Shown here in pieces: positions 625 to 23,642 of a stretch of 64,000 nt of DNA. The DNA is from Acanthopleura granulata (taxonomy: Eukaryota > Mollusca > Polyplacophora > Chitonida > Chitonidae). The notes below the pieces were generated by a model, which had not been told where the DNA came from, searched no databases, and saw only the letters and a program-made list of their open reading frames with translations. Location of the stretch: the NCBI GenBank assembly GCA_016165875.1, contig JABBOT010000016.1:8700946-8764945 (forward strand). Reading direction: 5' to 3'. The position numbers were made by a program, and so were the translations under genes. Every line of letters starts with the position of its first letter. The first letter of the stretch is position 1.

Positions 625-3600
625 GTAATACAGTCTTCTCAGCTCGCTTTTACTAAGTCAGGAGTTCAAGCCTATCTCCTGGCAATTCGTCTAACATTTA
701 TAATGTACTGTGCAGGGCTCCAGATAATTTTTTCAGCTGATGAATATTTCGTCGATTTGAAATAAGCAAGAGTGAAATAAGTCAAGTAATTTGCCTCTTG
801 GTTTTAAATGGCTCTATCGAAACGAGTGTTTTGCCATGGTTTCTGTGTTAAAGGTACACTGTATTTGCTCTGGCAAAGACACCAAGAAAATTTATTGTAA
901 TGATTTTACAGGTGACAATAATTAAATGTTCATGTAATAATTGTCATCTCTCATTACACCACCACGATAGTAAGGACATGACAATTGACCGTCCGAATGT
1001 TTTGTCGTGGATATTGCATCACATTTCCTCATTATTTCTGTCAAAGATTAATGTTCTATCAAAGGAATGATCACGCCATTATGAGATATTTATGTAACTG
1101 TTCTGTGTACGGCCAGAGGTATAAATACCACTGCGTTTCGGGAAAAGCCCGCATTTCTAAGCCTATTGGTACTTCTGTTGCTACCATTTCAGTTGCACGT
1201 GTTACAAGAATATAATTATCATCAGAAATAACTGCAAAGGTGTGGCCTTAAAATGTGCTCTGTTGATGTTGCTATCCCATATGTATAACTGCCCCTGTTC
1301 ATGCCCTTAGCTACAAGGGCTGCTGATATGCATAAAAAAATAAGGTTCTTAACATATCCTTATGTTTGGATGTGTAAGATTTTCAAAACTGATGTGTGTT
1401 TTGGGAATAGATATGTACCTGAATCCCTGACTGTCGTCATTGTTTGACCTTAGATTTGGACAAGTTTGAATGTGTGACTACTGAGTGGGTGTGGGAATGA
1501 GAAGGCCAGAGGGAAAATCAGGTGTATGTTGACTGAGCTTATCAACTCGTTATGAAATGCAGTCTATGAACCATTTGAAAAACTCTCATTCTTTTTTTTT
1601 TTCTTTCACAGATTTTCCTTCAAATGGAAATGGTGCGAAATTACATGCTCTTTGGATTTTATTACTTTTGGGCATATTAGGCATAGGTGGTAAGTGTTTT
1701 GTGTTCAATATTGGTAGATACATGCAACATGCACATTACATGTACAGGTACCTTGTTATGATTTTAAGTCCTGTGCCTGTGGAGTTTTCTAATGGCTTCC
1801 CTCAGCAGATAACTAGTCCTTGTCCACCCAGACCACCTGAATCCATGTCCCATGGGTGTGGCTGTGTATACATTGTATTTAGTAGGTCTGTATCCTGTGG
1901 TTTCTTGCTGTACCAGAGGCCGGACCACCCCGATGTCCTGGTGGTTAGAGTGTCCACCTCAAGTTTGGGTCGCAGTACAATGACCCGAAGCCTCCCACCA
2001 ATACGGTCGCTGTGAGTTCAAAACCAGGTCATGCTGGCTTCGTCTCCGGCTGTATGTGAGAAGGTCTGCCAACAACCTGCAGATGGTGTTGGGTTTTTCC
2101 CCGGGCTCTGCCCGGTTTCCTCCCTTCACAATGCTGGCCGCCGCCATATAAGTGAAGTATTTTTGAGTATGGCGTAAAACACCAATCAAATAAATAAATA
2201 AATAAGCCAAGGTTGGGAGATTCAGGTTCAATACCGAGTCGGGTCATATCAAAGATTTTAAAAATGATATTTTTTGCTGCTTCACTTGGTGCTCAGCACC
2301 GAGAGGTTAGAGCAAGGAAACAGGGCTGGTCACTATAATGTGGGGTGTCCCGTGTGGTGTCTTTGGCATGATGTTTGAGTGGCACCAGTACATTGACAAC
2401 ATGGACTCGCCCTGACATACCAGAGGCCATGCCCTCATCCTTACAGGGTTGACTTTACCATTACTGATGCAGGATTCTAGATGATTGGGTCACCTGAATC
2501 AGCTGTCACATCAATACGATTTTATATTTTTGTCATATGTTTTCAGGTGTTTTCTTCTACGGATGGAGAAGAAAATTATGTAAGTGTAAAGTGAGAAAGC
2601 TTTTTTCACATTCAAAACCTGCCATTTGGGCCATAAAGTTTTGCTGAGAAGGTCATTCTAACTTACAGAATGTTTCTTGACCATTTCACTCTGTACATAC
2701 ATCAGTTTGCCTGTAAATGAGATTGATTTGAATTGCATGTACTTGTGTATCAGTAATTTGTGATTGTCAGCCTGGAAATAAAAAAATGTGGTGTTGCCAG
2801 TACCCAACCATACCATTAAAAATGTATTCAGGGGGCCTCCATTGCCAAGGGGATTACCTCGCCAGCTTGACGTAATAATGCAGTTGTCTAGTCGTTGTGA
2901 GTTTAAGTCCAACTCATGCTGGCTTCCTCTCCGGCCGTACGTGGGTAACATCTGCCAAAAAGCTGTGGTTGGTATCCCTCAGGGTGTCTCCGTTTTTTCT
3001 CACCATAATGCTGGCAGCCGTCATTTAAGTGAAATATTTTTGAGTATGGCGCAAAACACCAAAAAATCAAATAAATGAAAAAAAACGTATTGAACAAAAT
3101 TAATTTTCTGTTTTCAAACAAAATCCTTTTTTTTCACTGCAAACAATAAACTGTGAACAAGAATGAGTGTTCATCATGTTTTGAGACAAATTGTTCATGT
3201 TTGTTACTCAGTCATTGACCCAGGGGTTTCGACATTTAGGTTTGCAGATCCGATGTCTGGGCAGGTTCTTTGGGGGTCAAAGCCAGCAAACACGGCATGA
3301 TAACGGACCAGTTGGAGACGGTGAGTGTTATTATAAGTAAAGATGACTGCCAAAAAAATGTCATTTATGTAGTTATTCATTTGATTGGGGTTTACTACCA
3401 AACATGCCAAACCCTAAGAAGCTTTCCCTTATCCAGTAACGGGGTTGGGAGATCCGGGATCAATCCTTGGTCGCATCATACCAAAGACTTTAAAAAATGA
3501 TACTTGTGTCTCTCTAGTACTGAGATGTTAGAACAAGGAAAGAGGAGTGGTCGGCCCTGTGTCAGTGTAATGTGACTGGATGGGGTGTCTTGTCTGGTGT

Positions 3601-6600
3601 CTTCAGCATGATATCTCACTGGTGGCGGCATGCCACAAGATGACACAGTATGTAGACATTATAAGCACCCCTCATCATCACATAACTGAAAAATTGTTGA
3701 GTAGGACGTTAAACCCAAACGTACGTACATGTACATACATATCTTATCCAACGACAGCATTTTTTTATATACATGTATTTACTTACCAGTGTTTTACACT
3801 CTACCCCAGAATATTTCCTCTATATGAAAGCAGCCAGTATTACAATGGATGGAAAACCCATGACCATCTGCAGGTTACTGGCACCCCTTCTAAGGTACAT
3901 ACCAGCAATCTAGAATCATTACACTGTGCTGGCACATTCACCCCGGTTAGTATTTATGAGCGGAGAAAACCATGCTCCCAGAGTACGCTAGCCCCATAAT
4001 ATCCGCTCTACCTGATAAGACCATATTAGCAGGAAATGCTTCTGTGCTTCAGTAACTGCAAGACTAAAGCTTATCTGGTACGGAATCCTTGACTTGCACC
4101 TTTTATAAAACAATTCACTTTGAGGTCACGAGATGTGGGACCCTTCTGGGTCAGGTCATACCAAAGGCTTTAAAAATGGTACTTGTTGCTGCCGCGCTTG
4201 ATCCTCAGTATTGTGAGGTTAGAGTAAGGAAACTCCAGTGTCAGTATAATGTGACTGAGTTGCTGTCACGTCTGGTGTCTTGGGCTCAAGTGGCGGCAGC
4301 ACTTTAGTTGGGTGGACTTGCCCTACCACAAGGAGACACAACATATCTACAGTCTAAGGACTTCTTAACATCATATGACTGAAAAATTGTTCAGTTCAAT
4401 GTAAAGGCCCAGGCATACATACATTACAGGTGAAGGAGCTAGACTTTCTGATGGAAATCTCCAGAATTCACACAGTAAGACTGGTCCTACAGAAGAGCAG
4501 GTCTCCCTCCTGGCTGAAATTCACCACTCTGAAGGTGATACAGCCTCTGGTCAAACCACTGGTAAGATTATCACTGTCTTCTGGTAAAAACATGAATGAG
4601 TTGGGGAAAAATTTCAGTGATGGGAATGTTTACAAACCGCAAGGGGACCACAGGCACAATACAAGCAGGCTACACACAAAACTACTAAGATGTTAAAAAC
4701 AAACCACTAGTACACTGCAGAAAAGTACAAGCAGGCTACAGACAAATTACTAAGATGTTGCAGGTACACCACTAGCAAACTACTGACAAACCACTATGGT
4801 GTTACAGATAAACCACTAAGATGTTACAGCCAAACATTAAGATGCTACAGACAAACCACTGAAATGGTATGGGCAAACCTCAAGCAGACTGCAGACAAGC
4901 CACAAGCAGGCTGTAGACGAAGCATTTTGAAGCTAGAGGCACACCACTAGCAGACTACAGACAAACCACTATGATGTTACGGACAAACCACTAAGATACT
5001 ACAGCCAAACAGTAAGATGCTACAGACAAACCACTGAAATGCTTTTACAAACCACAAGCTGACTGCAGACAAGCCACAAGCAGGCTGCAAATGAAGAACT
5101 TTGAAGCTGGAGGCAAACCACTCACAGGTCACAGACAAACCACAAACAGACTACAGACATACTATGATCCAATTACAGACAAACCCCCCACAGGTTACAT
5201 ACCAACCACTCAGAGGTCACAGACAAACCAATGAAAGGTTACAAGAAAAGCAATTGCAGGTTGCAGGAAAAACACAAGCAGGCTGTAGACAAACCACGTA
5301 GAGAGTAGAGGGACACCACTGCAGATTACAGACAAACCAAAAGGAGACTACAAACCAGAAGGCAGACTACAGACAAACCACAAGCAGACAACAGACAAGC
5401 TACAAGCAGACTAGACAAATCACAAGCAGATCAGAGACAAACTTACACAGGCTACAAACAAACCACTAAGATACTACGAACAAACAACAAGCAGACTACA
5501 TACGAACCAGAAGCAGGCTGGAGCACTTAGAGTCTAAAGACGAAGCATTTGCAGGTTGTAGACAAACTACAAAAACGTTGCACAAAGCACACGCCGGTTT
5601 CAGACAAACCACTCACTGGTTACAGACAAACCACTGGAAGGTTGCAGAAAAATCACACGCAGCCTTCAAACAAACCACTAAGATGCTATGGACAAACCAC
5701 AAGTGGACTGCAGACCATCTACAAGTTGGTTACACACACCACTCAAAAGTTACAAACAACCCATTCACAGGTTGCAGACAAACCACTCGCAGGCTATGGA
5801 CAACCCATTCGCAGACCACTAAGATGTTACAGGCAAACCACTAAAATGCTATAATGAAGCCAGCAAGATGCTACCGACAAACCACTGAAATGCTATGGAC
5901 AAACCATACACAGACTGCACACAAGCCACAAGCAAGCTGTGGACGAAGCACTTTGAAGCTAGAGGCAAACCACAAACAAACCACAGACAAACTATGATCC
6001 GATTGAAGACAAACTATTCACAGGTCACAGACAAGCCACCAACAGCTTACAAGCAAACCAATCGCAGGTTGCAGGAAACACACAAGCAGGCTGTAGACAA
6101 ACCACTTAGAGACTAGAGGCAAGCCACTGCAGACTACGGACAAACCACAAGCAGACTACAGACAAACCACAAGCAGACTACAGACAAACCACAAGCAGAC
6201 TAGACAAACCAAAAGTAGATTCAACAAACCACAAGCAGACTAGACAAACCACAAACCGACCACAGACAAACCACACACAGGCTGCAAACAAACCAGTAAG
6301 ATACTACGAACAAACCACAAGCAGGCTGTAGACAGAGCACTTACAATCTAGAGGCAAAGTATTTTCAGGTTCTAGACAAACCACAAAAAGGTTAAGCAAA
6401 GCACAAGCTGGTTTCAGACAAACCACTTGCAGGTTGCAGAAAAATTACATGCAGGCTATAAACAACCCACTAAGATGCTTTGGACAAACCACAAGAAGAC
6501 TGCAGACAAACTGCAAGTTGGTTACATGCACCACTCAAAAGTTACAAACAACCCACTGGCAGGTCACAGACAAACCACTCAAAGACCACTAAGATGCTAC

Positions 6601-9600
6601 AGGCAAATCACTAAGATGCTATAATCAGACCAGTAGGATGCTACAGGCTATTAACTAGGTCACTTGTAAGAGACATTGTACGAAGAGGGTATGGGCAAGT
6701 CACTCAAAGGATACAGACAATGACAGAAACCCCACCACTGGTAGCCTTTCTTTCTGAACAGCGCAGACAAACAGTGATTGAGGCTTACAAAGTCCATCGT
6801 TAGAAATCAAAAGAAATATTCTAATTGTATTTTCTTTGTAATAATGTGCATGTCCAACATATGGATGTGTTTTAGATATGGGATCATATGCATATCTCTT
6901 CGTCACATGTGAGACAGATTGTCAGTGAGAGTTTGGTGGTTTAATACACTAGGCACTCTTTCCTCCACCTGTGAAACCGTCCATCATCATGTCTGTGAGA
7001 GATTCTTGGGCATGGTGTCAAACAACAACCAATCAAGTAAATTTTAAAAAAATTACAGGTGAAAGGAGTGCCTCGTTGGCCTGGTGCTTTGAGCCTTCAC
7101 ATCGAGGTTGCGAGATTCATGATGCCTCTGGATCAGGTCATACCAAAGGCTTTATAAATGGTACTTGTTGCTGCCGAGCTTGATGCTCAGCATTGAGATG
7201 TTAGAGTAAGGAAACAGAACTGGTCAGCTCAGTGTCAGTATAATGTGACTGGGTAGGGTGTCTTGGGCTCCATTGGCAGCAGCACTGTGGGTAGATGGAC
7301 TTGCCCTACCACAAGAAGACACAACATATCTACAATCTAAGGACTTCTTAACATCATATGACTGAAAAATTGTTCAGTTCAATGTAAAGGCCCAGGCATA
7401 CGTACATTACAGGTGAAGGAGCTGGACTTTCTGATGGAAGTCTCCAGAATTCACACAGTGAGACTGGTCCTACAGAAGAGCAGGGCTCCCTCCTAGCTGA
7501 AATTCACCACTCTGAAGGTGACACAGCCTCTGGTCAAACCACTGGTAAGATTATCACTGTCTTCTGGTAAAAACATGAATGAGTTGGGGAAAAATTTCAG
7601 TGATGGGAATTTTCACAAACCACAAGGAGACTACAGGCATAATACAAGCAGGCTACAGACAAAACTACTAAGATGTTAAAAACAAACCACTAGTACACTG
7701 CAGAAAAGTACAAGCAGGCTACAGACAAATTACTAAGATGTTGCAGGTACACCACTAGCAAACTACTGACAAACCACTATGGTGTTACAGATAAACCACT
7801 AAGATGTTACAGCCAAACATTAAGATGCTACAGACAAACCACTGAAATGGTATGGGCAAACCTCAAGCAGACTGCAGACAAGCCACAAGCAGGCTGTAGA
7901 CGAAGCATTTTGAAGCTAGAGGCACACCACTAGCAGACTACAGACAAACCACTATGATGTTACGGACAAACCACTAAGATACTACAGCCAAACAGTAAGA
8001 TGCTACAGACAAACCACTGAAATGCTTTTACAAACCACAAGCTGACTGCAGACAAGCCACAAGCAGGCTGCAAATGAAGAACTTTGAAGCTGGAGGCAAA
8101 CCACTCACAGGTCACAGACAAACCACAAACAGACTACAGACATACTATGATCCAATTACAGACAAACCCCCCACAGGTTACATACCAACCACTCAGAGGT
8201 CACAGACAAACCAATGAAAGGTTACAAGAAAAGCAATTGCAGGTTGCAGGAAAAACACAAGCAGGCTGTAGACAAACCACGTAGAGAGTAGAGGGACACC
8301 ACTGCAGATTACAGACAAACCAAAAGGAGACTACAAACCAGAAGGCAGACTACAGACAAACCACAAGCAGACAACAGACAAGCTACAAGCAGACTAGACA
8401 AATCACAAGCAGATCAGAGACAAACTTACACAGGCTACAAACAAACCACTAAGATACTACGAACAAACAACAAGCAGACTACATACGAACCAGAAGCAGG
8501 CTGGAGCACTTAGAGTCTAAAGACGAAGCATTTGCAGGTTGTAGACAAACTACAAAAACGTTGCACAAAGCACACGCCGGTTTCAGACAAACCACTCACT
8601 GGTTACAGACAAACCACTGGAAGGTTGCAGAAAAATCACACGCAGCCTTCAAACAAACCACTAAGATGCTATGGACAAACCACAAGTGGACTGCAGACCA
8701 TCTACAAGTTGGTTACACACACCACTCAAAAGTTACAAACAACCCATTCACAGGTTGCAGACAAACCACTCGCAGGCTATGGACAACCCATTCGCAGACC
8801 ACTAAGATGTTACAGGCAAACCACTAAAATGCTATAATGAAGCCAGCAAGATGCTACCGACAAACCACTGAAATGCTATGGACAAACCATACACAGACTG
8901 CACACAAGCCACAAGCAAGCTGTGGACGAAGCACTTTGAAGCTAGAGGCAAACCACAAACAAACCACAGACAAACTATGATCCGATTGAAGACAAACTAT
9001 TCACAGGTCACAGACAAGCCACCAACAGCTTACAAGCAAACCAATCGCAGGTTGCAGGAAACACACAAGCAGGCTGTAGACAAACCACTTAGAGACTAGA
9101 GGCAAGCCACTGCAGACTACGGACAAACCACAAGCAGACTACAGACAAACCACAAGCAGACTACAGACAAACCACAAGCAGACTAGACAAACCAAAAGTA
9201 GATTCAACAAACCACAAGCAGACTAGACAAACCACAAACCGACCACAGACAAACCACACACAGGCTGCAAACAAACCAGTAAGATACTACGAACAAACCA
9301 CAAGCAGGCTGTAGACAGAGCACTTACAATCTAGAGGCAAAGTATTTTCAGGTTCTAGACAAACCACAAAAAGGTTAAGCAAAGCACAAGCTGGTTTCAG
9401 ACAAACCACTTGCAGGTTGCAGAAAAATTACATGCAGGCTATAAACAACCCACTAAGATGCTTTGGACAAACCACAAGAAGACTGCAGACAAACTGCAAG
9501 TTGGTTACATGCACCACTCAAAAGTTACAAACAACCCACTGGCAGGTCACAGACAAACCACTCAAAGACCACTAAGATGCTACAGGCAAATCACTAAGAT

Positions 9601-12600
9601 GCTATAATCAGACCAGTAGGATGCTACAGGCTATTAACTAGGTCACTTGTAAGAGACATTGTACGAAGAGGGTATGGGCAAGTCACTCAAAGGATACAGA
9701 CAATGACAGAAACCCCACCACTGGTAGCCTTTCTTTCTGAACAGCGCAGACAAACAGTGATTGAGGCTTACAAAGTCCATCGTTAGAAATCAAAAGAAAT
9801 ATTCTAATTGTATTTTCTTTGTAATAATGTGCATGTCCAACATATGGATGTGTTTTAGATATGGGATCATATGCATATCTCTTCGTCACATGTGAGACAG
9901 ATTGTCAGTGAGAGTTTGGTGGTTTAATACACTAGGCACTCTTTCCTCCACCTGTGAAACCGTCCATCATCATGTCTGTGAGAGATTCTTGGGCATGGTG
10001 TCAAACAACAACCAATCAAGTAAATTTTAAAAAAATTACAGGTGAAAGGAGTGCCTCGTTGGCCTGGTGCTTTGAGCCTTCACATCGAGGTTGCGAGATT
10101 CATGATGCCTCTGGATCAGGTCATACCAAAGGCTTTATAAATGGTACTTGTTGCTGCCGAGCTTGATGCTCAGCATTGAGATGTTAGAGTAAGGAAACAG
10201 AACTGGTCAGCTCAGTGTCAGTATAATGTGACTGGGTAGGGTGTCTTGGGCTCCATTGGCAGCAGCACTGTGGGTAGATGGACTTGCCCTACCACAAGAA
10301 GACACAACATATCTACAATCTAAGGACTTCTTAACATCATATGACTGAAAAATTGTTCAGTTCAATGTAAAGGCCCAGGCATACGTACATTACAGGTGAA
10401 GGAGCTAGACTTTCTGATGGAAGTCTCCAGAATTCACACAGTGAGACTGGTCCTACAGAAGAGCAGGGCTCCCTCCTAGCTGAAATTCACCACTCTGAAG
10501 GTGACACAGCCTCTGGTCAAACCACTGGTAAGATTATCACTGTCTTCTGGTAAAAACATGAATGAGTTGGGGAAAAATTTCAGTGATGGGAATTTTCACA
10601 AACCACAAGGAGACTACAGGCATAATACAAGCAGGCTACAGACAAAACTACTAAGATGTTAAAAACAAACCACTAGTACACTGCAGAAAAGTACAAGCAG
10701 GCTACAGACAAATTACTAAGATGTTGCAGGTACACCACTAGCAAACTACTGACAAACCACTATGGTGTTACAGATAAACCACTAAGATGTTACAGCCAAA
10801 CATTAAGATGCTACAGACAAACCACTGAAATGGTATGGGCAAACCTCAAGCAGACTGCAGACAAGCCACAAGCAGGCTGTAGACGAAGCATTTTGAAGCT
10901 AGAGGCACACCACTAGCAGACTACAGACAAACCACTATGATGTTACGGACAAACCACTAAGATACTACAGCCAAACAGTAAGATGCTACAGACAAACCAC
11001 TGAAATGCTTTTACAAACCACAAGCTGACTGCAGACAAGCCACAAGCAGGCTGCAAATGAAGAACTTTGAAGCTGGAGGCAAACCACTCACAGGTCACAG
11101 ACAAACCACAAACAGACTACAGACATACTATGATCCAATTACAGACAAACCACCCACAGGTTACATACCAACCACTCAGAGGTCACAGACAAACCAATGA
11201 AAGGTTACAAGAAAAGCAATTGCAGGTTGCAGGAAAAACACAAGCAGGCTGTAGACAAACCACGTAGAGAGTAGAGGGACACCACTGCAGATTACAGACA
11301 AACCAAAAGGAGACTACAAACCAGAAGGCAGACTACAGACAAACCACAAGCAGACAACAGACAAGCTACAAGCAGACTAGACAAATCACAAGCAGATCAG
11401 AGACAAACTTACACAGGCTACAAACAAACCACTAAGATACTACGAACAAACAACAAGCAGACTACATACGAACCAGAAGCAGGCTGGAGCACTTAGAGTC
11501 TAAAGACGAAGCATTTGCAGGTTGTAGACAAACTACAAAAACGTTGCACAAAGCACACGCCGGTTTCAGACAAACCACTCACTGGTTACAGACAAACCAC
11601 TGGAAGGTTGCAGAAAAATCACACGCAGCCTTCAAACAAACCACTAAGATGCTATGGACAAACCACAAGTGGACTGCAGACCATCTACAAGTTGGTTACA
11701 CACACCACTCAAAAGTTACAAACAACCCATTCACAGGTTGCAGACAAACCACTCGCAGGCTATGGACAACCCATTCGCAGACCACTAAGATGTTACAGGC
11801 AAACCACTAAAATGCTATAATGAAGCCAGCAAGATGCTACCGACAAACCACTGAAATGCTATGGACAAACCATACACAGACTGCACACAAGCCACAAGCA
11901 AGCTGTGGACGAAGCACTTTGAAGCTAGAGGCAAACCACAAACAAACCACAGACAAACTATGATCCGATTGAAGACAAACTATTCACAGGTCACAGACAA
12001 GCCACCAACAGCTTACAAGCAAACCAATCGCAGGTTGCAGGAAACACACAAGCAGGCTGTAGACAAACCACTTAGAGACTAGAGGCAAGCCACTGCAGAC
12101 TACGGACAAACCACAAGCAGACTACAGACAAACCACAAGCAGACTACAGACAAACCACAAGCAGACTAGACAAACCAAAAGTAGATTCAACAAACCACAA
12201 GCAGACTAGACAAACCACAAACCGACCACAGACAAACCACACACAGGCTGCAAACAAACCAGTAAGATACTACGAACAAACCACAAGCAGGCTGTAGACA
12301 GAGCACTTACAATCTAGAGGCAAAGTATTTTCAGGTTCTAGACAAACCACAAAAAGGTTAAGCAAAGCACAAGCTGGTTTCAGACAAACCACTTGCAGGT
12401 TGCAGAAAAATTACATGCAGGCTATAAACAACCCACTAAGATGCTTTGGACAAACCACAAGAAGACTGCAGACAAACTGCAAGTTGGTTACATGCACCAC
12501 TCAAAAGTTACAAACAACCCACTGGCAGGTCACAGACAAACCACTCAAAGACCACTAAGATGCTACAGGCAAATCACTAAGATGCTATAATCAGACCAGT

Positions 12601-15600
12601 AGGATGCTACAGGCTATTAACTAGGTCACTTGTAAGAGACATTGTACGAAGAGGGTATGGGCAAGTCACTCAAAGGATACAGACAATGACAGAAACCCCA
12701 CCACTGGTAGCCTTTCTTTCTGAACAGCGCAGACAAACAGTGATTGAGGCTTACAAAGTCCATCGTTAGAAATCAAAAGAAATATTCTAATTGTATTTTC
12801 TTTGTAATAATGTGCATGTCCAACATATGGATGTGTTTTAGATATGGGATCATATGCATATCTCTTCGTCACATGTGAGACAGATTGTCAGTGAGAGTTT
12901 GGTGGTTTAATACACTAGGCACTCTTTCCTCCACCTGTGAAACCGTCCATCATCATGTCTGTGAGAGATTCTTGGGCATGGTGTCAAACAACAACCAATC
13001 AAGTAAATTTTAAAAAAATTACAGGTGAAAGGAGTGCCTCGTTGGCCTGGTGCTTTGAGCCTTCACATCGAGGTTGCGAGATTCATGATGCCTCTGGATC
13101 AGGTCATACCAAAGGCTTTATAAATGGTACTTGTTGCTGCCGAGCTTGATGCTCAGCATTGAGATGTTAGAGTAAGGAAACAGAACTGGTCAGCTCAGTG
13201 TCAGTATAATGTGACTGGGTAGGGTGTCTTGGGCTCCATTGGCAGCAGCACTGTGGGTAGATGGACTTGCCCTACCACAAGAAGACACAACATATCTACA
13301 ATCTAAGGACTTCTTAACATCATATGACTGAAAAATTGTTCAGTTCAATGTAAAGGCCCAGGCATACGTACATTACAGGTGAAGGAGCTAGACTTTCTGA
13401 TGGAAGTCTCCAGAATTCACACAGTGAGACTGGTCCTACAGAAGAGCAGGGCTCCCTCCTGGCTGAAATTCACCACTCTGAAGGTGACACAGCCTCTGGT
13501 CAAACCACTGGTAAGATTATCACTGTCTTCTGGTAAAAACATGAATGAGTTGGGGAAAAATTTCAGTGATGGGAATTTTCACAAACCACAAGGAGACTAC
13601 AGGCATAATACAAGCAGGCTACAGACAAAACTACTAAGATGTTAAAAACAAACCACTAGTACACTGCAGAAAAGTACAAGCAGGCTACAGACAAATTACT
13701 AAGATGTTGCAGGTACACCACTAGCAAACTACTGACAAACCACTATGGTGTTACAGATAAACCACTAAGATGTTACAGCCAAACATTAAGATGCTACAGA
13801 CAAACCACTGAAATGGTATGGGCAAACCTCAAGCAGACTGCAGACAAGCCACAAGCAGGCTGTAGACGAAGCATTTTGAAGCTAGAGGCACACCACTAGC
13901 AGACTACAGACAAACCACTATGATGTTACGGACAAACCACTAAGATACTACAGCCAAACAGTAAGATGCTACAGACAAACCACTGAAATGCTTTTACAAA
14001 CCACAAGCTGACTGCAGACAAGCCACAAGCAGGCTGCAAATGAAGAACTTTGAAGCTGGAGGCAAACCACTCACAGGTCACAGACAAACCACAAACAGAC
14101 TACAGACATACTATGATCCAATTACAGACAAACCACCCACAGGTTACATACCAACCACTCAGAGGTCACAGACAAACCAATGAAAGGTTACAAGAAAAGC
14201 AATTGCAGGTTGCAGGAAAAACACAAGCAGGCTGTAGACAAACCACGTAGAGAGTAGAGGGACACCACTGCAGATTACAGACAAACCAAAAGGAGACTAC
14301 AAACCAGAAGGCAGACTACAGACAAACCACAAGCAGACAACAGACAAGCTACAAGCAGACTAGACAAATCACAAGCAGATCAGAGACAAACTTACACAGG
14401 CTACAAACAAACCACTAAGATACTACGAACAAACAACAAGCAGACTACATACGAACCAGAAGCAGGCTGGAGCACTTAGAGTCTAAAGACGAAGCATTTG
14501 CAGGTTGTAGACAAACTACAAAAACGTTGCACAAAGCACACGCCGGTTTCAGACAAACCACTCACTGGTTACAGACAAACCACTGGAAGGTTGCAGAAAA
14601 ATCACACGCAGCCTTCAAACAAACCACTAAGATGCTATGGACAAACCACAAGTGGACTGCAGACCATCTACAAGTTGGTTACACACACCACTCAAAAGTT
14701 ACAAACAACCCATTCACAGGTTGCAGACAAACCACTCGCAGGCTATGGACAACCCATTCGCAGACCACTAAGATGTTACAGGCAAACCACTAAAATGCTA
14801 TAATGAAGCCAGCAAGATGCTACCGACAAACCACTGAAATGCTATGGACAAACCATACACAGACTGCACACAAGCCACAAGCAAGCTGTGGACGAAGCAC
14901 TTTGAAGCTAGAGGCAAACCACAAACAAACCACAGACAAACTATGATCCGATTGAAGACAAACTATTCACAGGTCACAGACAAGCCACCAACAGCTTACA
15001 AGCAAACCAATCGCAGGTTGCAGGAAACACACAAGCAGGCTGTAGACAAACCACTTAGAGACTAGAGGCAAGCCACTGCAGACTACGGACAAACCACAAG
15101 CAGACTACAGACAAACCACAAGCAGACTACAGACAAACCACAAGCAGACTAGACAAACCAAAAGTAGATTCAACAAACCACAAGCAGACTAGACAAACCA
15201 CAAACCGACCACAGACAAACCACACACAGGCTGCAAACAAACCAGTAAGATACTACGAACAAACCACAAGCAGGCTGTAGACAGAGCACTTACAATCTAG
15301 AGGCAAAGTATTTTCAGGTTCTAGACAAACCACAAAAAGGTTAAGCAAAGCACAAGCTGGTTTCAGACAAACCACTTGCAGGTTGCAGAAAAATTACATG
15401 CAGGCTATAAACAACCCACTAAGATGCTTTGGACAAACCACAAGAAGACTGCAGACAAACTGCAAGTTGGTTACATGCACCACTCAAAAGTTACAAACAA
15501 CCCACTGGCAGGTCACAGACAAACCACTCAAAGACCACTAAGATGCTACAGGCAAATCACTAAGATGCTATAATCAGACCAGTAGGATGCTACAGGCTAT

Positions 15601-18600
15601 TAACTAGGTCACTTGTAAGAGACATTGTACGAAGAGGGTATGGGCAAGTCACTCAAAGGATACAGACAATGACAGAAACCCCACCACTGGTAGCCTTTCT
15701 TTCTGAACAGCGCAGACAAACAGTGATTGAGGCTTACAAAGTCCATCGTTAGAAATCAAAAGAAATATTCTAATTGTATTTTCTTTGTAATAATGTGCAT
15801 GTCCAACATATGGATGTGTTTTAGATATGGGATCATATGCATATCTCTTCGTCACATGTGAGACAGATTGTCAGTGAGAGTTTGGTGGTTTAATACACTA
15901 GGCACTCTTTCCTCCACCTGTGAAACCGTCCATCATCATGTCTGTGAGAGATTCTTGGGCATGGTGTCAAACAACAACCAATCAAGTAAATTTTAAAAAA
16001 ATTACAGGTGAAAGGAGTGCCTCGTTGGCCTGGTGCTTTGAGCCTTCACATCGAGGTTGCGAGATTCATGATGCCTCTGGATCAGGTCATACCAAAGGCT
16101 TTATAAATGGTACTTGTTGCTGCCGAGCTTGATGCTCAGCATTGAGATGTTAGAGTAAGGAAACAGAACTGGTCAGCTCAGTGTCAGTATAATGTGACTG
16201 GGTAGGGTGTCTTGGGCTCCATTGGCAGCAGCACTGTGGGTAGATGGACTTGCCCTACCACAAGAAGACACAACATATCTACAATCTAAGGACTTCTTAA
16301 CATCATATGACTGAAAAATTGTTCAGTTCAATGTAAAGGCCCAGGCATACGTACATTACAGGTGAAGGAGCTAGACTTTCTGATGGAAGTCTCCAGAATT
16401 CACACAGTGAGACTGGTCCTACAGAAGAGCAGGGCTCCCTCCTAGCTGAAATTCACCACTCTGAAGGTGACACAGCCTCTGGTCAAACCACTGGTAAGAT
16501 TATCACTGTCTTCTGGTAAAAACATGAATGAGTTGGGGAAAAATTTCAGTGATGGGAATTTTCACAAACCACAAGGAGACTACAGGCATAATACAAGCAG
16601 GCTACAGACAAAACTACTAAGATGTTAAAAACAAACCACTAGTACACTGCAGAAAAGTACAAGCAGGCTACAGACAAATTACTAAGATGTTGCAGGTACA
16701 CCACTAGCAAACTACTGACAAACCACTATGGTGTTACAGATAAACCACTAAGATGTTACAGCCAAACATTAAGATGCTACAGACAAACCACTGAAATGGT
16801 ATGGGCAAACCTCAAGCAGACTGCAGACAAGCCACAAGCAGGCTGTAGACGAAGCATTTTGAAGCTAGAGGCACACCACTAGCAGACTACAGACAAACCA
16901 CTATGATGTTACGGACAAACCACTAAGATACTACAGCCAAACAGTAAGATGCTACAGACAAACCACTGAAATGCTTTTACAAACCACAAGCTGACTGCAG
17001 ACAAGCCACAAGCAGGCTGCAAATGAAGAACTTTGAAACTGGAGGCAAACCACTCACAGGTCACAGACAAACCACAAACAGACTACAGACATACTATGAT
17101 CCAATTACAGACAAACCACCCACAGGTTACATACCAACCACTCAGAGGTCACAGACAAACCAATGAAAGGTTACAAGAAAAGCAATTGCAGGTTGCAGGA
17201 AAAACACAAGCAGGCTGTAGACAAACCACGTAGAGAGTAGAGGGACACCACTGCAGATTACAGACAAACCAAAAGGAGACTACAAACCAGAAGGCAGACA
17301 ACAGACAAGCTACAAGCAGACTAGACAAATCACAAGCAGATCAGAGACAAACTTACACAGGCTACAAACAAACCACTAAGATACTACGAACAAACAACAA
17401 GCAGACTACATACGAACCAGAAGCAGGCTGGAGCACTTAGAGTCTAAAGACGAAGCATTTGCAGGTTGTAGACAAACTACAAAAACGTTGCACAAAGCAC
17501 ACGCCGGTTTCAGACAAACCACTCACTGGTTACAGACAAACCACTGGAAGGTTGCAGAAAAATCACACGCAGCCTTCAAACAAACCACTAAGATGCTATG
17601 GACAAACCACAAGTGGACTGCAGACCATCTACAAGTTGGTTACACACACCACTCAAAAGTTACAAACAACCCATTCACAGGTTGCAGACAAACCACTCGC
17701 AGGCTATGGACAACCCATTCGCAGACCACTAAGATGTTACAGGCAAACCACTAAAATGCTATAATGAAGCCAGCAAGATGCTACCGACAAACCACTGAAA
17801 TGCTATGGACAAACCATACACAGACTGCACACAAGCCACAAGCAAGCTGTGGACGAAGCACTTTGAAGCTAGAGGCAAACCACAAACAAACCACAGACAA
17901 ACTATGATCCGATTGAAGACAAACTATTCACAGGTCACAGACAAGCCACCAACAGCTTACAAGCAAACCAATCGCAGGTTGCAGGAAACACACAAGCAGG
18001 CTGTAGACAAACCACTTAGAGACTAGAGGCAAGCCACTGCAGACTACGGACAAACCACAAGCAGACTACAGACAAACCACAAGCAGACTACAGACAAACC
18101 ACAAGCAGACTAGACAAACCAAAAGTAGATTCAACAAACCACAAGCAGACTAGACAAACCACAAACCGACCACAGACAAACCACACACAGGCTGCAAACA
18201 AACCAGTAAGATACTACGAACAAACCACAAGCAGGCTGTAGACAGAGCACTTACAATCTAGAGGCAAAGTATTTTCAGGTTCTAGACAAACCACAAAAAG
18301 GTTAAGCAAAGCACAAGCTGGTTTCAGACAAACCACTTGCAGGTTGCAGAAAAATTACATGCAGGCTATAAACAACCCACTAAGATGCTTTGGACAAACC
18401 ACAAGAAGACTGCAGACAAACTGCAAGTTGGTTACATGCACCACTCAAAAGTTACAAACAACCCACTGGCAGGTCACAGACAAACCACTCAAAGACCACT
18501 AAGATGCTACAGGCAAATCACTAAGATGCTATAATCAGACCAGTAGGATGCTACAGGCTATTAACTAGGTCACTTGTAAGAGACATTGTACGAAGAGGGT

Positions 18601-21600
18601 ATGGGCAAGTCACTCAAAGGATACAGACAATGACAGAAACCCCACCACTGGTAGCCTTTCTTTCTGAACAGCGCAGACAAACAGTGATTGAGGCTTACAA
18701 AGTCCATCGTTAGAAATCAAAAGAAATATTCTAATTGTATTTTCTTTGTAATAATGTGCATGTCCAACATATGGATGTGTTTTAGATATGGGATCATATG
18801 CATATCTCTTCGTCACATGTGAGACAGATTGTCAGTGAGAGTTTGGTGGTTTAATACACTAGGCACTCTTTCCTCCACCTGTGAAACCGTCCATCATCAT
18901 GTCTGTGAGAGATTCTTGGGCATGGTGTCAAACAACAACCAATCAAGTAAATTTTAAAAAAATTACAGGTGAAAGGAGTGCCTCGTTGGCCTGGTGCTTT
19001 GAGCCTTCACATCGAGGTTGCGAGATTCATGATGCCTCTGGATCAGGTCATACCAAAGGCTTTATAAATGGTACTTGTTGCTGCCGAGCTTGATGCTCAG
19101 CATTGAGAGGTTAGAGTAAGGAAACAGAACTGGTCAGCTCAGTGTCAGTATAATGTGACTGGGTAGGGTGTCTTGGGCTCCATTGGCAGCAGCACTGTGG
19201 GTAGATGGACTTGCCCTACCACAAGAAGACACAACATATCTACAATCTAAGGACTTCATATGACTGAAAAATTGTTCAGTTCAATGTAAAGGCCCAGGCA
19301 TACGTACATTACAGGTGAAGGAGCTAGACTTTCTGATGGAAGTCTCCAGAATTCACACAGTGAGACTGGTCCTACAGAAGAGCAGGGCTCCCTCCTGGCT
19401 GAAATTCACCACTCTGGAGGTGACACAGCCTCTGGTCAAACCACTGGTAAGATTATCACTGTCTTCTGTTAAAAACATGAATGAGTTGGGGAAAAATTTC
19501 AGTGATGGGAATTTTCACAAACCACAAGGAGACTACAGGCACAATACAAGCAGGCTACAGACAATACTAGGAAGATGTTAAAAACAAACGACTAGTACGC
19601 TGCAGAAAAGTACAAGCAGGCTACAGAGAAACTACAAAGATGTTGTAGGCAAACCACTAGCAAACTACAGACAAACCACTATGGGTGTTGCAGACAAACC
19701 ACTAAGATGTTACAGCCAAACATTAAGATGCTACCAATAAACCACTGAAATGCTATGGACAAACCATACACAGACTGCACACAAGCAGGCTGTAGACGAA
19801 GCATTTTGAAGCTAGAGGCATACCACTCGCAAGTCACAGAGAAACCACAAACAGACTGCAGACAAAACTACAATCCGATCGCAGAAAAACCACTGACAGG
19901 TCACAGACAAGCCACTCACAGCTTACAAGTTGGTTGCAGGAAACACACAAGCAGGCTGCAGACAAACCATGTAGAGACTAGAGGCAAACAAATGCACACT
20001 ACAGACAAACCAAAAGCAAGACTACAGACAAACCACAAGCGGACTACAGACAAATCACAAGTAGACTAGACAAACCACAAGGAGACTAGATACACCACAC
20101 ACAGGCTGCAAACAAACCACACACAGGCTACAAACAGACTACTAAGATACTACAAACAAACCATAAGCAGACTGCATATGAACCACAAGCAGGCTGTAGA
20201 CAGAGCACTTACAATCTAGGGGCTAAGCATTTGCAGGTTGTAGACAAGCCACAAAATAGGTAAACAATGCACAAGCTGGTTTCAGACAAACCACTCACCG
20301 GTGACAGACAAACCACTTGCAGGTCAGAGACAAACCACTTGCAGGACACAGATAAACCACTTGCAGGTTGCAGAAATGTCACATGCAAGCTACAGACAAA
20401 CTGCTAAGATACTATAGACAAACCACAAGTAGACGGCAGACGAACCACAGGTTGATTACAGACACCACTCAAAGGTTACAAACAACTTACTCGCAGGTTG
20501 CAGACATATGACTGGCACGTTACAAACAACCCACTTGCAGACCACTAAGATGCTACAATCAAATCACTAAGATGCCATAATCAAACCAGCAAGATGCTAC
20601 CGACAAACCACTGAAATGCTGTGGACAAACCACAAAGAGACTGCACACAAGCCACAAGCAAGCTGTAGACAAAGCACTTTGAAGCTAGAGGCAAACCACT
20701 CGCGGGTTACAGACAAACCACAAACAGACTACAGACAAACTACAATCCGATTGCAGACAAACCACTCGCAGGTGACAGACAAGCCACTCACAGATTACAA
20801 ACAACCCACCCGCAGGTTGCAGACAAACCACTCGCAGATTGCAGACAAACCACACGCAGACCAATAAGGTGCTAGAGGCAAACCACTAAGATGCTATAAT
20901 CAAAACATTAAGATGCTACAGGCACACCACTATCTCACTTGTAAGAGACATTCTACGAAGAAGGTATGGGCAAGGATACAGACAATGACAGAGAAACTGT
21001 TAAGAGACCAGACCCCACCACTAGTAGTCTTTCTTTGTGTTTTTTCAGAGTGTGGCATGACTGAAATGGACAAACATCGGTTGAGGTGCAACAGAAAGTT
21101 GATATTAGAACAAGTACGATTTAAGGATGTGAGAGATTTACTGTACCAGGAGAATATATTGAGCGAAGAAGACATGGATGAATGCGGGAATGAAAATAAA
21201 ACTGATAAGGAACAGATGTGTACTTTGCTGAAAATTTTACCATGTCGCGGGCCGAAGGCTTATGAAGTTTTCCGCTCGGCTCTGCAGAAGTCCCATCCTT
21301 GGGTGGTCAAGGAGCTTGACTCAACTAGAAAATGTAAGCAAAGGTATGTGTACTTCTGTTTATACATAATATTAGAGTGTAACAGGGTGGTTCTTGGTTT
21401 CCACAAGTCAATACACAGTCACATGATATTCCGCAAACATGGTGTACAATGGTCATGATGCAATGTTCAACGATCACATGACAATAGCCAGCGATCTTGT
21501 GCGTTCACTTCAAAAGGTTTTCTCCCTTTGTCTGTTGTCTTACGTCTACTTGTTTATAAAGTAAACAGTGGTGCAGAAGGCTTTTTCAGCTAGCAATGGT

Positions 21601-21706
21601 GTAGAATTCCAACAATTTATGTCTTCAGCAAAGCAGGTCATATCTTTTCGTTTTTCTTCCATTTTCTTTCAGTGTAATAAAACATGTAATTCATGCTGTG
21701 GGATGA
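581..21706 (+). CDS. CARD-containing single-pass membrane protein gene, 5' end outside the window
   Basis: Discontinuous gene; the exons are listed separately. In order: Thr/Pro-rich stalk, one transmembrane helix, basic Cys-containing juxtamembrane stretch, acidic/polar linker, then a CARD. A CARD is a homotypic adaptor domain of apoptosis and innate signalling, so a cytoplasmic CARD behind a membrane helix suggests a receptor or membrane adaptor. The ectodomain exons and signal peptide would lie upstream of base 1, so the receptor class is unknown. Phases agree throughout: stalk out 1, TM in 1; juxtamembrane exon out 0 if donor 2591 is used, next exon in 0 out 1; linker 1-1; CARD in 1 out 2. 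The 3' end is uncertain: a short terminal exon (21673-21706) or an exon at 24224. The linker region has been turned into a satellite array. Recognition of the CARD is strong; the exon chain upstream is inferred. Confidence 0.65.
625..1611 (+). other. Intron, no gene seen
   Basis: AT-rich sequence between the stalk and transmembrane exons. I see no conserved reading frame and no recognisable repeat. A long poly-T tract (about 1591-1609) forms the polypyrimidine tract of the next acceptor. Confidence 0.5.
1612..1689 (+). CDS. Transmembrane exon
   Basis: Exon behind a strong acceptor (long T tract, ttctttcacag). Phase 1 reading gives a short polar lead, then LHALWILLLLGILGIGG, a clear hydrophobic helix. 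Two donors three bases apart (gtggta at 1687, gtaagt at 1690) are both in frame; gtaagt is the better consensus and gives exon end 1689. The helix continues into the next exon (VFFYGW) and ends in a positive stretch, which places the downstream part in the cytoplasm by the positive-inside rule. Confidence 0.65.
1932..2204 (+). mobile_element. SINE-A copy (tRNA-derived, RUDI-like)
   Basis: Nearly full-length. It has the internal landmarks caatgacccgaagcctcccacc, gctgtgagttcaa, ctccggctgtatgtg, aatgctggccgccgcc, then aagtgaagtatttttgagta, ggcgtaaaacaccaatc and an aaat repeat tail. It is directly abutted by a SINE-B copy. Confidence 0.8.
2205..2480 (+). mobile_element. SINE-B copy
   Basis: A second SINE family. 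It has a box-B-like ggttcaataccgag, then gggtcatatcaaagattttaaaaatg, a cagcaccgagaggttagag block, ggtgtc words and a ggactcgccctg block. It sits head to tail behind SINE-A with no spacer, so one may have inserted in the tail of the other. Confidence 0.7.
2547..2590 (+). CDS. Juxtamembrane exon: end of TM helix plus basic/Cys stretch
   Basis: Acceptor tgttttcag; reading in phase 1 gives GVFFYGWRRKLCKCK. The first residues complete the transmembrane helix; RRK and the two nearby Cys suit a cytoplasmic face, the Cys possibly lipidated. Donor choice: gtaagt at 2580 (phase 1) or gtgaga at 2591 (phase 0). Only the 2591 donor joins in frame to the open phase of the next exon, so I chose it, although gtaagt is the better consensus. 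Confidence 0.5.
2827..3080 (+). mobile_element. SINE-A copy, diverged
   Basis: Shows gttgtgagtttaagtcc, ctggcttcctctccggccg, accataatgctggcagccg and the gagtatggcgcaaaacacc tail, with several small indels. Confidence 0.7.
3248..3320 (+). CDS. Cytoplasmic exon before the linker
   Basis: 73-nt exon after the acceptor taggtttgcag and before the consensus donor gtgagt. Read from phase 0 it encodes a Gly/Gln/Arg-rich stretch (starts IRCLGRFFGG) and leaves phase 1, exactly the phase needed by the linker exon. A second possible acceptor at 3262 would leave phase 0 and break the join. No domain is recognised. Confidence 0.45.
3420..3760 (+). mobile_element. SINE-B copy, most complete
   Basis: Runs from the ggttgggagatccgggatcaa box-B-like region through caaagactttaaaaaatga, the repeated ggtgtc words, ggcggcatgccacaag, to ctgaaaaattgttgagtagg acgttaaac and an acgtacat tail. 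Confidence 0.7.
3790..3885 (-). mobile_element. SINE-A fragment
   Basis: Reverse-complement 3' half of SINE-A: cagaatatttcctctatatg, cagccagtattacaatgg, catgaccatctgcaggtta. Confidence 0.55.
4112..4425 (+). mobile_element. SINE-B copy ahead of the first unit, diverged
   Basis: Carries caggtcataccaaaggcttta, ttagagtaaggaaac, ggtgtcttgggctc and actgaaaaattgttcagttc. It differs from the copies in later units by a deletion and substitutions, so it marks the left edge of the homogenised array. Confidence 0.7.
4430..4561 (+). CDS. Linker exon, copy 1
   Basis: 132-nt exon between acceptor acattacag and donor gtaaga. In phase 1-1 it encodes an acidic, polar, structureless-looking 44-residue segment (contains SKTGPTEEQVSLLAEIHHSE). 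Phase symmetry means that copies can be added or skipped without shifting frame. Phase 0 is also open here but contains a stop in copies 2, 3 and 5, while phase 1 is open in all six. The flanking stalk/CARD phases also select phase 1. Confidence 0.6.
4640..6660. repeat. 22-bp monomer block of unit 1
   Basis: About 90 degenerate monomers with the shared core acagacaaaccac, alternating with words such as taagatgctac, aagcaggct and tcacaggt. Runs of perfect monomers occur at 6130-6200. The same block recurs in every later unit. Because 22 is not a multiple of 3, all the short reading frames here are by-products of the repeat. Confidence 0.9.
6661..7070 (+). other. Non-satellite segment of each unit, with a relic of the CARD-exon acceptor region
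   Basis: Begins cacttgtaagagacattgta and continues aaggatacagacaatgacag, cccaccactggtagcctttctttctgaacag. The same sequence precedes the true CARD exon at 20936-21048, where it ends in ttttttcag. In the repeated units it runs instead into unrelated AT-rich DNA. The unit's right part therefore derives from the intron just upstream of the CARD exon. Confidence 0.75.
7073..7400 (+). mobile_element. SINE-B copy inside the repeat unit
   Basis: Complete copy starting near tgcctcgttggcctggtgct, with box-B-like ggttgcgagattcatgatg and ending actgaaaaattgttcagttc. It lies just before each linker exon and recurs at 10056, 13039, 16022 and about 18983. The SINE was thus captured in the unit and amplified with it. 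Confidence 0.75.
7413..7544 (+). CDS. Linker exon, copy 2
   Basis: Same acceptor and gtaaga donor. Open in phase 1-1; a TAG interrupts phase 0 (cctag). Relative to copy 1, phase 1 has four replacements and two silent changes, including the ctg-to-cta change that creates the phase-0 stop and stays Leu in phase 1. Confidence 0.6.
10396..10527 (+). CDS. Linker exon, copy 3
   Basis: Open in phase 1-1, TAG in phase 0. It differs from copy 2 at a single visible position (gctagac against gctggac). Splice sites are intact. Confidence 0.6.
13379..13510 (+). CDS. Linker exon, copy 4
   Basis: Open in phase 1-1 (and in phase 0). Splice sites are intact. Identical to copy 3 except for the silent Leu position (ctg). 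Confidence 0.6.
16362..16493 (+). CDS. Linker exon, copy 5
   Basis: Open in phase 1-1, TAG in phase 0. Splice sites are intact. Confidence 0.6.
19315..19446 (+). CDS. Linker exon, copy 6, nearest the CARD
   Basis: Open in phase 1-1. One Glu-to-Gly change (tctggaggt). It lies in the diverged last unit, so it is probably outside the most recent homogenisation. It is the copy whose donor most directly faces the CARD acceptor at 21048. Confidence 0.6.
19447..20930. repeat. Diverged 22-bp monomer block of the last unit
   Basis: Same monomer family as 4640-6660 but with many substitutions and a different monomer order. It includes perfect-looking stretches such as cttgcaggt...gacaaaccactt (20310-20370). 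This is likely an older part of the array. Confidence 0.85.
21049..21343 (+). CDS. CARD exon
   Basis: 295-nt exon with acceptor tgtgttttttcag and donor gtatgt, phase 1 in and 2 out. It encodes about 95 residues with CARD hallmarks: an N-terminal basic helix (MDKHRLRCNRKLI), DLLYQENILSEEDMDE as the helix 2-3 region, LLKILPCRGPKAYEVF (the L-P-x-R-G-P-x-A-F/Y signature of CARDs such as RAIDD and caspase-2), then ALQKSHPWVVKEL as the last helix. The single-exon CARD length (85-95 aa) is normal. It acts by CARD-CARD contact with an unknown partner. The fold call is firm; the assignment to the same gene as the TM exon rests on phase and strand. Confidence 0.88.
21673..21706 (+). CDS. Possible terminal exon of the CARD gene
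   Basis: A very good acceptor (cgtttttcttccattttctttcag) is followed, in the phase left by the CARD exon, by eleven codons and a TGA at 21704. That would end the protein shortly after the CARD. An aataaa lies about 155 bases further on (gtgaaaataaatgcc). The 24224 exon candidate is an alternative or a splice variant. Confidence 0.4.
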
Positions 21707-21803
21707 TATCACAGGAATTGAGATGTTCAACTTGTGCTCCACATTTGTTGAACATCAGTTCCCTCAAGCTGACAATTCCTTTGATATCATCCCACAGCAT
21801 GAA
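21690..21803. repeat. 31-bp inverted repeat (hairpin)
   Basis: Arms 21690-21720 and 21773-21803 are complementary apart from one or two positions (core ttcatgctgtgggatgatatc). A second, shorter pair (gatgttcaac / gttgaacatc) lies inside. It would sit in the 3' UTR if the terminal exon at 21673 is real. Confidence 0.8.
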
Positions 21804-21849
21804 CTACCTGTGTAATGTAAGACCTAAGCTTGCAACCAGTATGGAGCAT

Positions 21850-22020
21850 TTTTAGGTGAAAATAAATGCCATGAAATATTACCTGTAGTGCTGAAACATT
21901 CTCAGGTTCATTGTCATCCTGCCTTACAAACAAACCTTGAAACACCTGTTTCAGATCAATATAACTCAGAATCAATCAAAATGAGCGAATTAGCCATGGA
22001 CAAAATCTAGGATATTGAAA
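21850..22020 (-). repeat. Dispersed repeat D, copy 1
   Basis: Reverse-strand match to sequences at 47390-47660, 48715-48960 and, in the same orientation as this copy, 49330-49540. Shared words: aggtgaaaataaatgccatg, gaaatatta, gatgctgaaac-like, aacaaaccttgaaacacct, aatgagc...tagccatggac. Confidence 0.6.
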
Positions 22021-22208
22021 TCATTAAGTTCCTCATTTATTTCATTGGTGTTAGTGGTTAGAACGCTTGCACAGCATAGTGACTCTCCGGTCAAATAAAT
22101 AAATAAATCCTCCAGTGTCCAATAATAGTAAATGCAGTCTTAAGGTATATGTTAGCGTTGGTATCTTGATGGAAAGGGCCCCCATAAAGTTCCGTTGAGT
22201 CAAAACAC

Positions 22209-23057: not shown

Positions 23058-23284
23058 TTTTTACCAGTCATAACATACAGGATCTTTCCCTTTAAAAGAC
23101 ACTGTGTGTTGAGGCACTGCAGGTTTTGCAGACGTGTAAAGTACATTAATAGAAGGAAGATGTGCCATTTTCAGTGCCATATTTGCATATTAAATTACAA
23201 AATTCACAACTTAGCCTCTTGTGGATTGGAATCAGTTGTAATATGTTTGAGGTAAATGTTAAGAGGGTGGGTGTATCTTATAAC

Positions 23285-23520: not shown

Positions 23521-23642
23521 TGGTTAGTCATGGGTTCCAACCATCCCGCCTCTGCCTAGTTTCCTCCCAAAATAATGCTGGCTGCTGTCATGTAAGTGAA
23601 ATATTCTTGTGTACCTTGTAAAATCCCCAAAAAATAAATAAA
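23521..23642 (+). mobile_element. SINE-A 3' fragment
   Basis: Second 3' half directly downstream (tagtttcctcccaaaataat, gctggctgctgtcatgtaag, aaataaataaat), as if the 3' half were duplicated. Confidence 0.7.

Follow-up and report, generated by a model that had tools for sequence, protein, structure and literature searches.

A tandem array of six open, phase-matched candidate exons between a predicted membrane helix and a CARD in the chiton Acanthopleura granulata

Results and discussion

A tandem array, open and phase-matched candidate exons within it, and a CARD are directly visible in a 64,000-nt stretch of the Acanthopleura granulata genome (GCA_016165875.1, contig JABBOT010000016.1, positions 8,700,946–8,764,945, forward strand). 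We refer to this whole stretch as the window, and coordinates count from its first letter. On balance, we lean towards reading the array as an exon-carrying coding VNTR, like the KIV-2 repeat of LPA, situated in one small type I CARD-receptor gene and encoding a disordered cytoplasmic tether.

The tandem array

Six units of about 2983 nt occupy positions 4114–20861 on the + strand, with a predicted transmembrane exon on one side and a CARD exon on the other, both on that same strand, where the preliminary description had placed them. Successive units start 2983, 2983, 2983, 2983 and 2953 nt apart. Comparison of units 2–5 found them almost identical, with differences at 4 points and one 22-nt deletion, which indicates that the copies are young; the outer edges of the array have diverged, a pattern of concerted evolution among the units. 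Rows of a 22-bp minisatellite form the bulk of the unit (4671–6648, + strand, in unit 1). The unit also contains a segment (6567–6756, + strand) homologous to 20842–21039, the end of the intron, which leaves 9 nt to the start of the CARD exon. The unit tail was also considered as the remnant of a decayed CARD exon; this was rejected, since 20.6% of 500 shuffles reached its local alignment score of 40.

When the third copy of the candidate exon was searched against its own genome, it matched at least six places, all of them inside the array; the search skips very common words, and its counts are lower bounds. The ~3-kb unit had earlier been called a satellite. Its tandem structure was borne out, but the term is not apt: judged on the exon part of the unit, the matches all fall in this one local array rather than in arrays around the genome.

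The candidate linker exons

Every unit holds a candidate exon of exactly 132 nt that is open in the same frame (6 of 6). On the + strand the copies lie at 4430–4561, 7413–7544, 10396–10527, 13379–13510, 16362–16493 and 19315–19446, the last being nearest the CARD; copy 1 differs from copies 2–6 at 4 to 6 of its 132 nt. If these are indeed exons, all six multi-kb tandem units carry a complete exon with a length that is a multiple of 3. The candidate has phase 1 on both sides, matching the modelled transmembrane, juxtamembrane, cytoplasmic and CARD exons, and all ten exons modelled from the transmembrane helix to the CARD are multiples of 3, in phase 1-1 and on the same strand. The six in-frame copies and their phase agreement with the CARD exon, as previously described, both hold, and the phase symmetry of the 132-nt candidate upholds the logic that gain or loss of a unit would be frame-neutral.

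The candidate had also been credited with good splice sites, which proved right for the donor and too generous for the acceptor. Scored with a hand-written weight matrix of splice-site frequencies that was not trained on A. granulata, the donor ranks first among the 114 GTs of the unit. The acceptor is mediocre, with a score of -1.0 that ranks 15th among the unit's 273 AGs and is reached or exceeded by 697 of the 4431 AGs in the window. This weakness is not fatal, because the same matrix gives just 1.0 to the acceptor of the CARD exon in CRADD, a gene of the same genome. With the observed exon's own splice scores as thresholds, a phase 1-1 candidate of equal quality appeared in 17 of 300 shuffled units (35 of 300 for any symmetric phase). 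The same thresholds were reached in 4 of 54 natural pieces, which overlap by half, so that the 4 matches represent fewer independent events.

The encoded peptide is unusually disorder-like. Its order-promoting fraction is 0.116, against a median of 0.42, and no value as low was seen among 327 natural open stretches of 43 codons or among 2163 open shuffles. The codon-position bias was equalled by 7 of 2000 open shuffles. A general amino-acid score was less striking than the disorder measure: 9 of the 327 natural stretches reached it, as did 21 of 2000 shuffles. The exon shows no support for purifying selection: a hand count of its variable sites gave 5 nonsynonymous and 2 synonymous, against a neutral expectation of 0.70:0.27.

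A dispersed SINE-like element (7069–7405 in unit 2, + strand, by alignment) ends at the linker acceptor. Partial copies of it recur in the window near 2210, 3476, 24558 and 40350, and the name SINE is our own reading of this dispersed element rather than a library assignment. To its left is a target-site duplication, ATTACAGGTGAAAGGAG (7052–7068, + strand), which is repeated before units 3–6; the right-hand duplicate, ATTACAGGTGAAGGAG (7406–7421, + strand), contains the linker acceptor and the first 9 nt of the exon. Because both duplicates contain the acceptor, the acceptor is older than the SINE, and its birth from the SINE tail is ruled out. Splicing at the acceptor of the left duplicate (7059) was likewise rejected, since it scores -4.2 and its frame hits a stop inside the SINE.

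The predicted receptor exons and the CARD

The predicted transmembrane exon, FPSNGNGAKLHALWILLLLGILGIG (1612–1689, + strand, 78 nt, phase 1-1), has a donor of 5.5 and an acceptor of 12.0, one of 2 among 4431 AGs scoring at least 9. Its frame was chosen for the hydrophobic helix (hydropathy 2.32 over 19 residues); a second frame is open too. It would be followed by a juxtamembrane exon, cyt1 (2547–2579, + strand, 33 nt, phase 1-1; acceptor 7.0, donor 2.8), encoding the stop-transfer sequence VFFYGWRRKL, and by a cytoplasmic exon, cyt2 (3240–3320, + strand, 81 nt, phase 1-1; acceptor -1.8, donor 6.4). The cyt2 donor, one of 7 among 3692 GTs at 6.4 or above, calls for a partner downstream, just as the CARD acceptor does upstream; the interval between the two exons (3321–21048) has no acceptor of at least 5, the best being 4.3.

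Candidate exons for a signal peptide and a Cys-rich region were located upstream, beyond the start of the window. All receptor exons were predicted from score, phase and content, with the signal peptide judged by eye; its exon starts at an ATG, so only the end phase is meaningful. Left out were other candidates from -7703 to -5715 with a repetitive look or no cysteines, and a shorter signal-peptide donor. The Cys-rich exons gave no match to a Pfam family at E values up to 10, and their one PDB match was not credible; the TNFR_c6 repeat was not found in them, and their likeness to TNFR is by eye only. A collection of 5.8 billion proteins from public genomes and metagenomes yielded no protein homologues.

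Profile and fold confirm that the exon at 21049–21333 (+ strand, 285 nt, phase 1-1; acceptor 9.0, donor 3.2) encodes a RAIDD-like CARD. It matches the Pfam CARD profile at E 5.7e-17, its best PDB sequence match is RAIDD (E 2e-9), and the single-sequence AlphaFold model has a mean pLDDT of 92. Foldseek returned 116 matches to this model up to E 10, none below 0.001 (best E 2.4e-3); the 50 listed are mostly CARDs, at probability 1.00. A likely terminal exon (21673–21880, + strand, end approximate; acceptor 8.2) lies 340 nt past the CARD exon and would add Leu-stop after the CARD (T/TG TAA), with an AATAAA at 21861 and another at 21676.

The genome's own CRADD, with CARD and Death domain, is present elsewhere, and its CARD exon has the same cag/AG start, just before Met; the window's CARD exon has ATG codons 8 and 17 nt in. 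We found no Death domain on the + strand of 21333–29000, 39300–48301 and 56000–64000, and the CARD-plus-Death architecture of CRADD/RAIDD was rejected for the window gene within these scanned parts.

An inverted paralogue

About 139 kb away lies an inverted paralogue that can be modelled with the same layout as the window gene. Its cytoplasmic exons are followed by one linker-like, single-copy candidate exon of 105 nt, rich in S, P, Q and E. The scan of the paralogue listed phase 1-1 candidates only, so that its phase pattern is partly by construction; left out were a repeat-derived-looking 150-nt phase 1-1 candidate (6758–6907) and, for two of the exons retained, a shorter variant. The ~18 kb downstream of the linker-like exon yielded no CARD or Death domain, and none of the genome's 21 CARD matches listed is near the paralogue. 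Homology between the two linkers was not significant: of 2000 shuffles, 113 were as similar in local alignment and 62 in global alignment.

Alternative explanations

Several observations favour the coding reading: the shared strand and phase of all ten modelled exons, the lack of an acceptor of at least 5 between cyt2 and the CARD, the disorder-like and codon-position-biased linker with its first-ranked donor (of 114), an acceptor that predates the SINE, and a paralogue modelled with the same layout and a linker-like exon. It is weakened by the mediocre acceptor, the chance candidates (17 of 300) and the missing purifying signal, as well as by a paralogue with no detected CARD and a linker not significantly similar. 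Part of this evidence speaks equally for a receptor-CARD gene that is real but has the array as plain intron, cyt2 being joined to the CARD directly or via a single copy and the candidate exon being due to chance or decayed. Insertion of the SINE on the acceptor fits such a gene, and direct cyt2–CARD joining would preserve phase too. We regard it as a serious contender but somewhat unlikely, given that the disorder-like composition was matched in neither the natural stretches nor the open shuffles, that codon-position bias is present, that length and frame are kept in all six copies (though these are young), and that the paralogue has a linker-like candidate at the same place.

Quite unlikely, in our view, is a separate CRADD-derived gene that encodes only a CARD, with a 5' UTR exon and a coding sequence beginning in the CARD exon; the receptor would then end elsewhere, and the array would be intergenic or in a UTR intron. 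The RAIDD match, the CRADD-like exon start, the two ATGs, which make an own start possible, and the paralogous receptor with no detected CARD all suit such a gene; yet the cyt2 donor (6.4) has no acceptor of at least 5 ahead of the CARD, the scanned + strand parts hold no Death domain, a likely stop exon follows closely, and the exon phases agree. A wrong unit count, with near-identical repeats collapsed or expanded in the assembly, would be compatible with any of these readings. The near identity of units 2–5 would allow it, but we hold it highly doubtful: the units are individually marked by the left edge of unit 1, the right half of unit 6, a 22-nt deletion seen in unit 5 alone and point differences at scattered sites, and the array is embedded in an 11.5 Mb contig. 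Such marks and the contig support the array, though not the exact count.

Proposed mechanism and relation to known systems

Read as a coding VNTR, the gene would comprise a signal peptide, a Cys-rich ectodomain, one membrane helix, short phase 1-1 tail exons and a C-terminal CARD. Its receptor exons would splice to the CARD with most or all six 132-nt exons included, giving an acidic, disordered tether of up to 264 residues (6 x 44). Receptor clustering might then allow the CARD to recruit a caspase or other CARD partners, with the tether setting the reach and freedom of the CARDs toward each other. Historically, a block from ~300 nt upstream of the SINE to just before the CARD acceptor may have been duplicated, after which unequal exchange would have enlarged the array and kept its units alike, with 44 residues gained or lost in frame at every exchange.

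The window gene resembles CRADD/RAIDD in CARD sequence and CARD exon start, and differs in that no Death domain was found and in its apparent signal peptide, ectodomain and membrane helix. The repeats of NEB and DMBT1 are structural or extracellular parts and do not tether a death-fold signalling domain. Both are named beside LPA as long-unit coding VNTRs (PMC11201333), and resemble the present case in that a single repeat unit of a protein-coding gene exceeds the length of a short read. LPA KIV-2 is likewise built of tandem, nearly identical multi-kb units with complete exons and introns, whose number sets protein size (PMC11462820); it, too, has six copies in human reference assemblies. KIV-2 has two exons per unit, extracellular kringle domains and a reported 1–40 units per allele, whereas the window array, known here from one assembly's sequence, has one candidate exon per unit, which would encode a disordered cytoplasmic linker. 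Amphioxus TNFR-caspase hybrid receptors similarly join a transmembrane receptor directly to an apoptosis module, although their effector is a caspase domain rather than a CARD, and the excerpted account notes no repeated linker (PMC2575513). A narrow survey of open-access literature found no description of a receptor or array of this kind.

A CRADD-like CARD is apparently joined to a membrane receptor here, and the paralogue ~139 kb off, in which no CARD was found, offers a comparison. The product is a candidate cell-surface immune receptor in which block gain or loss could lengthen or shorten an internal tether with the protein frame intact. If the copies are spliced in, this fast-changing, frame-safe array would alter a CARD's tether and so let nature test how linker length affects death-fold signalling. 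Exon VNTRs of the LPA type, so far extracellular modules, would then also include a disordered signalling tether, and this outside vertebrates. It is unlikely, we think, that the tether works as a variable dial, with unit number varying by individual and exon skipping by cell, so that membrane–CARD distance and assembly threshold shift in 44-residue steps. By a polymer scaling law, adding a sixth unit to five, or a seventh to six, would change reach by only ~10%, so that coarse steps of such a dial would require a low copy number.

A proposed exon-carrying repeat in a putative receptor-CARD gene

We judge the chances even, or very slightly better, that the array is an exon-carrying VNTR within a receptor-CARD gene and that its copies are largely included in the transcript. 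The preliminary description reported six in-frame 132-nt linker copies, one per ~3-kb unit, separating the membrane helix from the CARD, with equal phase on both sides of the exon. Both points hold: all six candidate copies are open in one frame and phase-symmetric. The remaining two forward frames are interrupted by stops (copy 3 tested), and the lengths of all ten modelled exons are multiples of 3 (TM 78, cyt1 33, cyt2 81, six linkers of 132 and CARD 285 nt). Of the splice sites described as good, the donor stood, ranking first among the unit's 114 GTs, and the acceptor did not: on our generic splice matrix it scores -1.0, which is equalled or exceeded by 697 of the 4431 AGs in the window. 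Weak acceptors also occur in cyt2 of the same gene model (-1.8) and in the CARD exon of the genome's CRADD (1.0). The linker opens with GTGAAG after CAG (7413 and five equivalent places), an AG|GT as in recursive splicing, and its acceptor coincides with the second-best donor-like site of the unit (3.7).

The linker peptide has a fraction of order-promoting residues of 0.116, against a median of 0.42 among 327 natural open stretches; none of these stretches and none of 2163 open dinucleotide shuffles is as low. Its codon-position bias is attained by 7 of 2000 open shuffles. A general amino-acid score was counted against the exon: 9 of the 327 stretches equalled it, as did 21 of 2000 shuffles. 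As a control for chance, a phase 1-1 candidate of equal quality appeared in 17 of 300 shuffled units and 4 of 54 natural pieces; for any symmetric phase the count was 35 of 300 shuffled units. By hand count, the seven variable exon sites comprise five nonsynonymous and two synonymous changes, near the neutral expectation.

Inclusion of all six copies would give 264 residues. Under a polymer-type scaling law, reach would be ~5 nm for one copy and ~15 nm for six, rising by ~10% per further copy, so that copy number would matter most when copies are few, or if exons are skipped. LPA KIV-2 is closest in kind, and the array, with its candidate exons, shares its structural features.

Structure and origin of the array

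Repeat finding gave start-to-start spacings of 2983, 2983, 2983, 2983 and 2953 for the six copies, and self-alignment placed the array limits at 4114-20861. A 22-bp minisatellite makes up the bulk of the unit. Units 2-5 are told apart by four point differences and a 22-nt deletion. In the SINE-like part, the alignment of unit 1 with unit 2 shows 33 differences over 305 positions and a further 23 gap columns; the divergence of unit 1 rises toward the left edge, with 0 differences across most of the minisatellite, while unit 6 diverges toward the right. Homogenisation of the central units of a tandem array leaves this pattern. The earlier label of satellite does not apply in its ordinary meaning: the linker sequence was found at six places in the genome (606 Mb, 87 contigs; counts are lower bounds), all within the array.

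Of the four point differences that separate units 2-5, two (7424 and 7495) lie inside the exon (binomial P 0.011). We suspect that this excess reflects the exon's nearness to the array edge.

The dispersed SINE-like element lies directly 5' of the linker exon, and additional partial copies occur inside the window. In units 2-6 its left flank is ATTACAGGTGAAAGGAG and its right flank ATTACAGGTGAAGGAG, a target-site duplication. Because this duplication contains the acceptor and the first 9 nt of the exon, the AG|exon junction is older than the insertion. The unit also carries a copy of the end of the pre-CARD intron, with homology ending 9 nt before the CARD exon, and the first unit lacks its own left part, the break falling inside the SINE. 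In the simplest history, a single duplication that began upstream of the SINE and ended just short of the CARD acceptor would have been followed by expansion.

The predicted receptor and its CARD

The CARD identification (exon 21049-21333) is solid. Only two of the 4431 window acceptors score at least 9, those of the TM exon (1612-1689) and the CARD exon, and the splice-matrix scan found none scoring 5 or more between cyt2 and CARD. Past the CARD exon's donor, the next strong acceptor (21673, score 8.2) leads to Leu-stop, with AATAAA at 21861. A long inverted repeat is visible by eye at 21680-21800, likely 3' untranslated region.

Two exons are predicted in the locus upstream of the window (L013): one encodes a signal peptide and cysteines (L013:530-721, MGKPWIIIAIILFMIPTLEG..., end phase 1, donor 2.7), and the other is Cys-rich and 309 nt long (L013:1504-1812; its phase is 1-1, with an acceptor of 6.0 and a donor of 5.8). 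A stalk exon is possible around 580-624. Pfam and PDB searches gave the ectodomain no name, and Pfam did not identify it as TNFR.

The closest CARD in the genome, at 51% identity, is on contig C2, in a gene with CARD plus Death (Death E 2.8e-15), a true CRADD (G000:C2 14830576-14862345; L010, L016-L018). The candidate for its Death-domain exon, of phase 1-1, follows the CARD exon by ~650 nt, and the CARD exon starts with cag|AG just before Met, the same as in the window. The CRADD test found no Death domain for the window gene in the stretches scanned. Given the resemblance, a receptor may have captured the window's CARD exon from CRADD, or the exon may be a stand-alone CARD gene.

An inverted paralogue

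A single strong relative of the Cys-rich exon lies inverted on the same contig, ~66 kb past the window (~139 kb from the first exon, 49% identity). The 44 kb around it can be modelled to hold a matching Cys stretch (54%), the Cys exon, one TM exon with acceptor 9.7 and donor 6.7, two cytoplasmic exons (45 nt and 33 nt) and a further exon of 105 nt with peptide PEGQDIPCSWPPLPDDGPPHTQEQSIHSPGSEQS; because only phase 1-1 candidates were listed, their common phase is partly by construction. The 105-nt exon is what one would expect of a single-copy linker. Its similarity to the window linker does not reach significance (113 of 2000 shuffles were as good in local alignment, 62 in global), a search of ~18 kb downstream found neither a CARD nor a Death domain, and the 21 CARD matches listed for the genome all lie elsewhere. 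The acceptor stretch before the linker-like exon is duplicated 77 nt upstream (G000:C16 8820077-8820260, L029), giving two identical 12-nt acceptor ends.

Other features of the window

Tubulin-like exons at ~44067-44145 and 56870-57420 (Pfam E 9.6e-5 and 0.0025, both under the curated cut-off) belong to what we take to be delta-tubulin. A 48-bp minisatellite of about nine copies repeats the end of the second exon together with the splice donor; some copies carry a donor-like GTAAGA, forming a row of possible decoy donors. Two virus-like ORF sets (29833-36700 and 50640-55615) are mutually alike by eye, and for one of the two the Pfam search gave a weak match to Capsid_N (E 0.006, under cut-off). 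Reverse-transcriptase-like ORFs, recognised by eye, adjoin an AT repeat at 37694-39221; one ORF tested gave no reverse-transcriptase Pfam match. At 59177-59333, an 83-bp unit is repeated with 100% matches over 1.9 copies.
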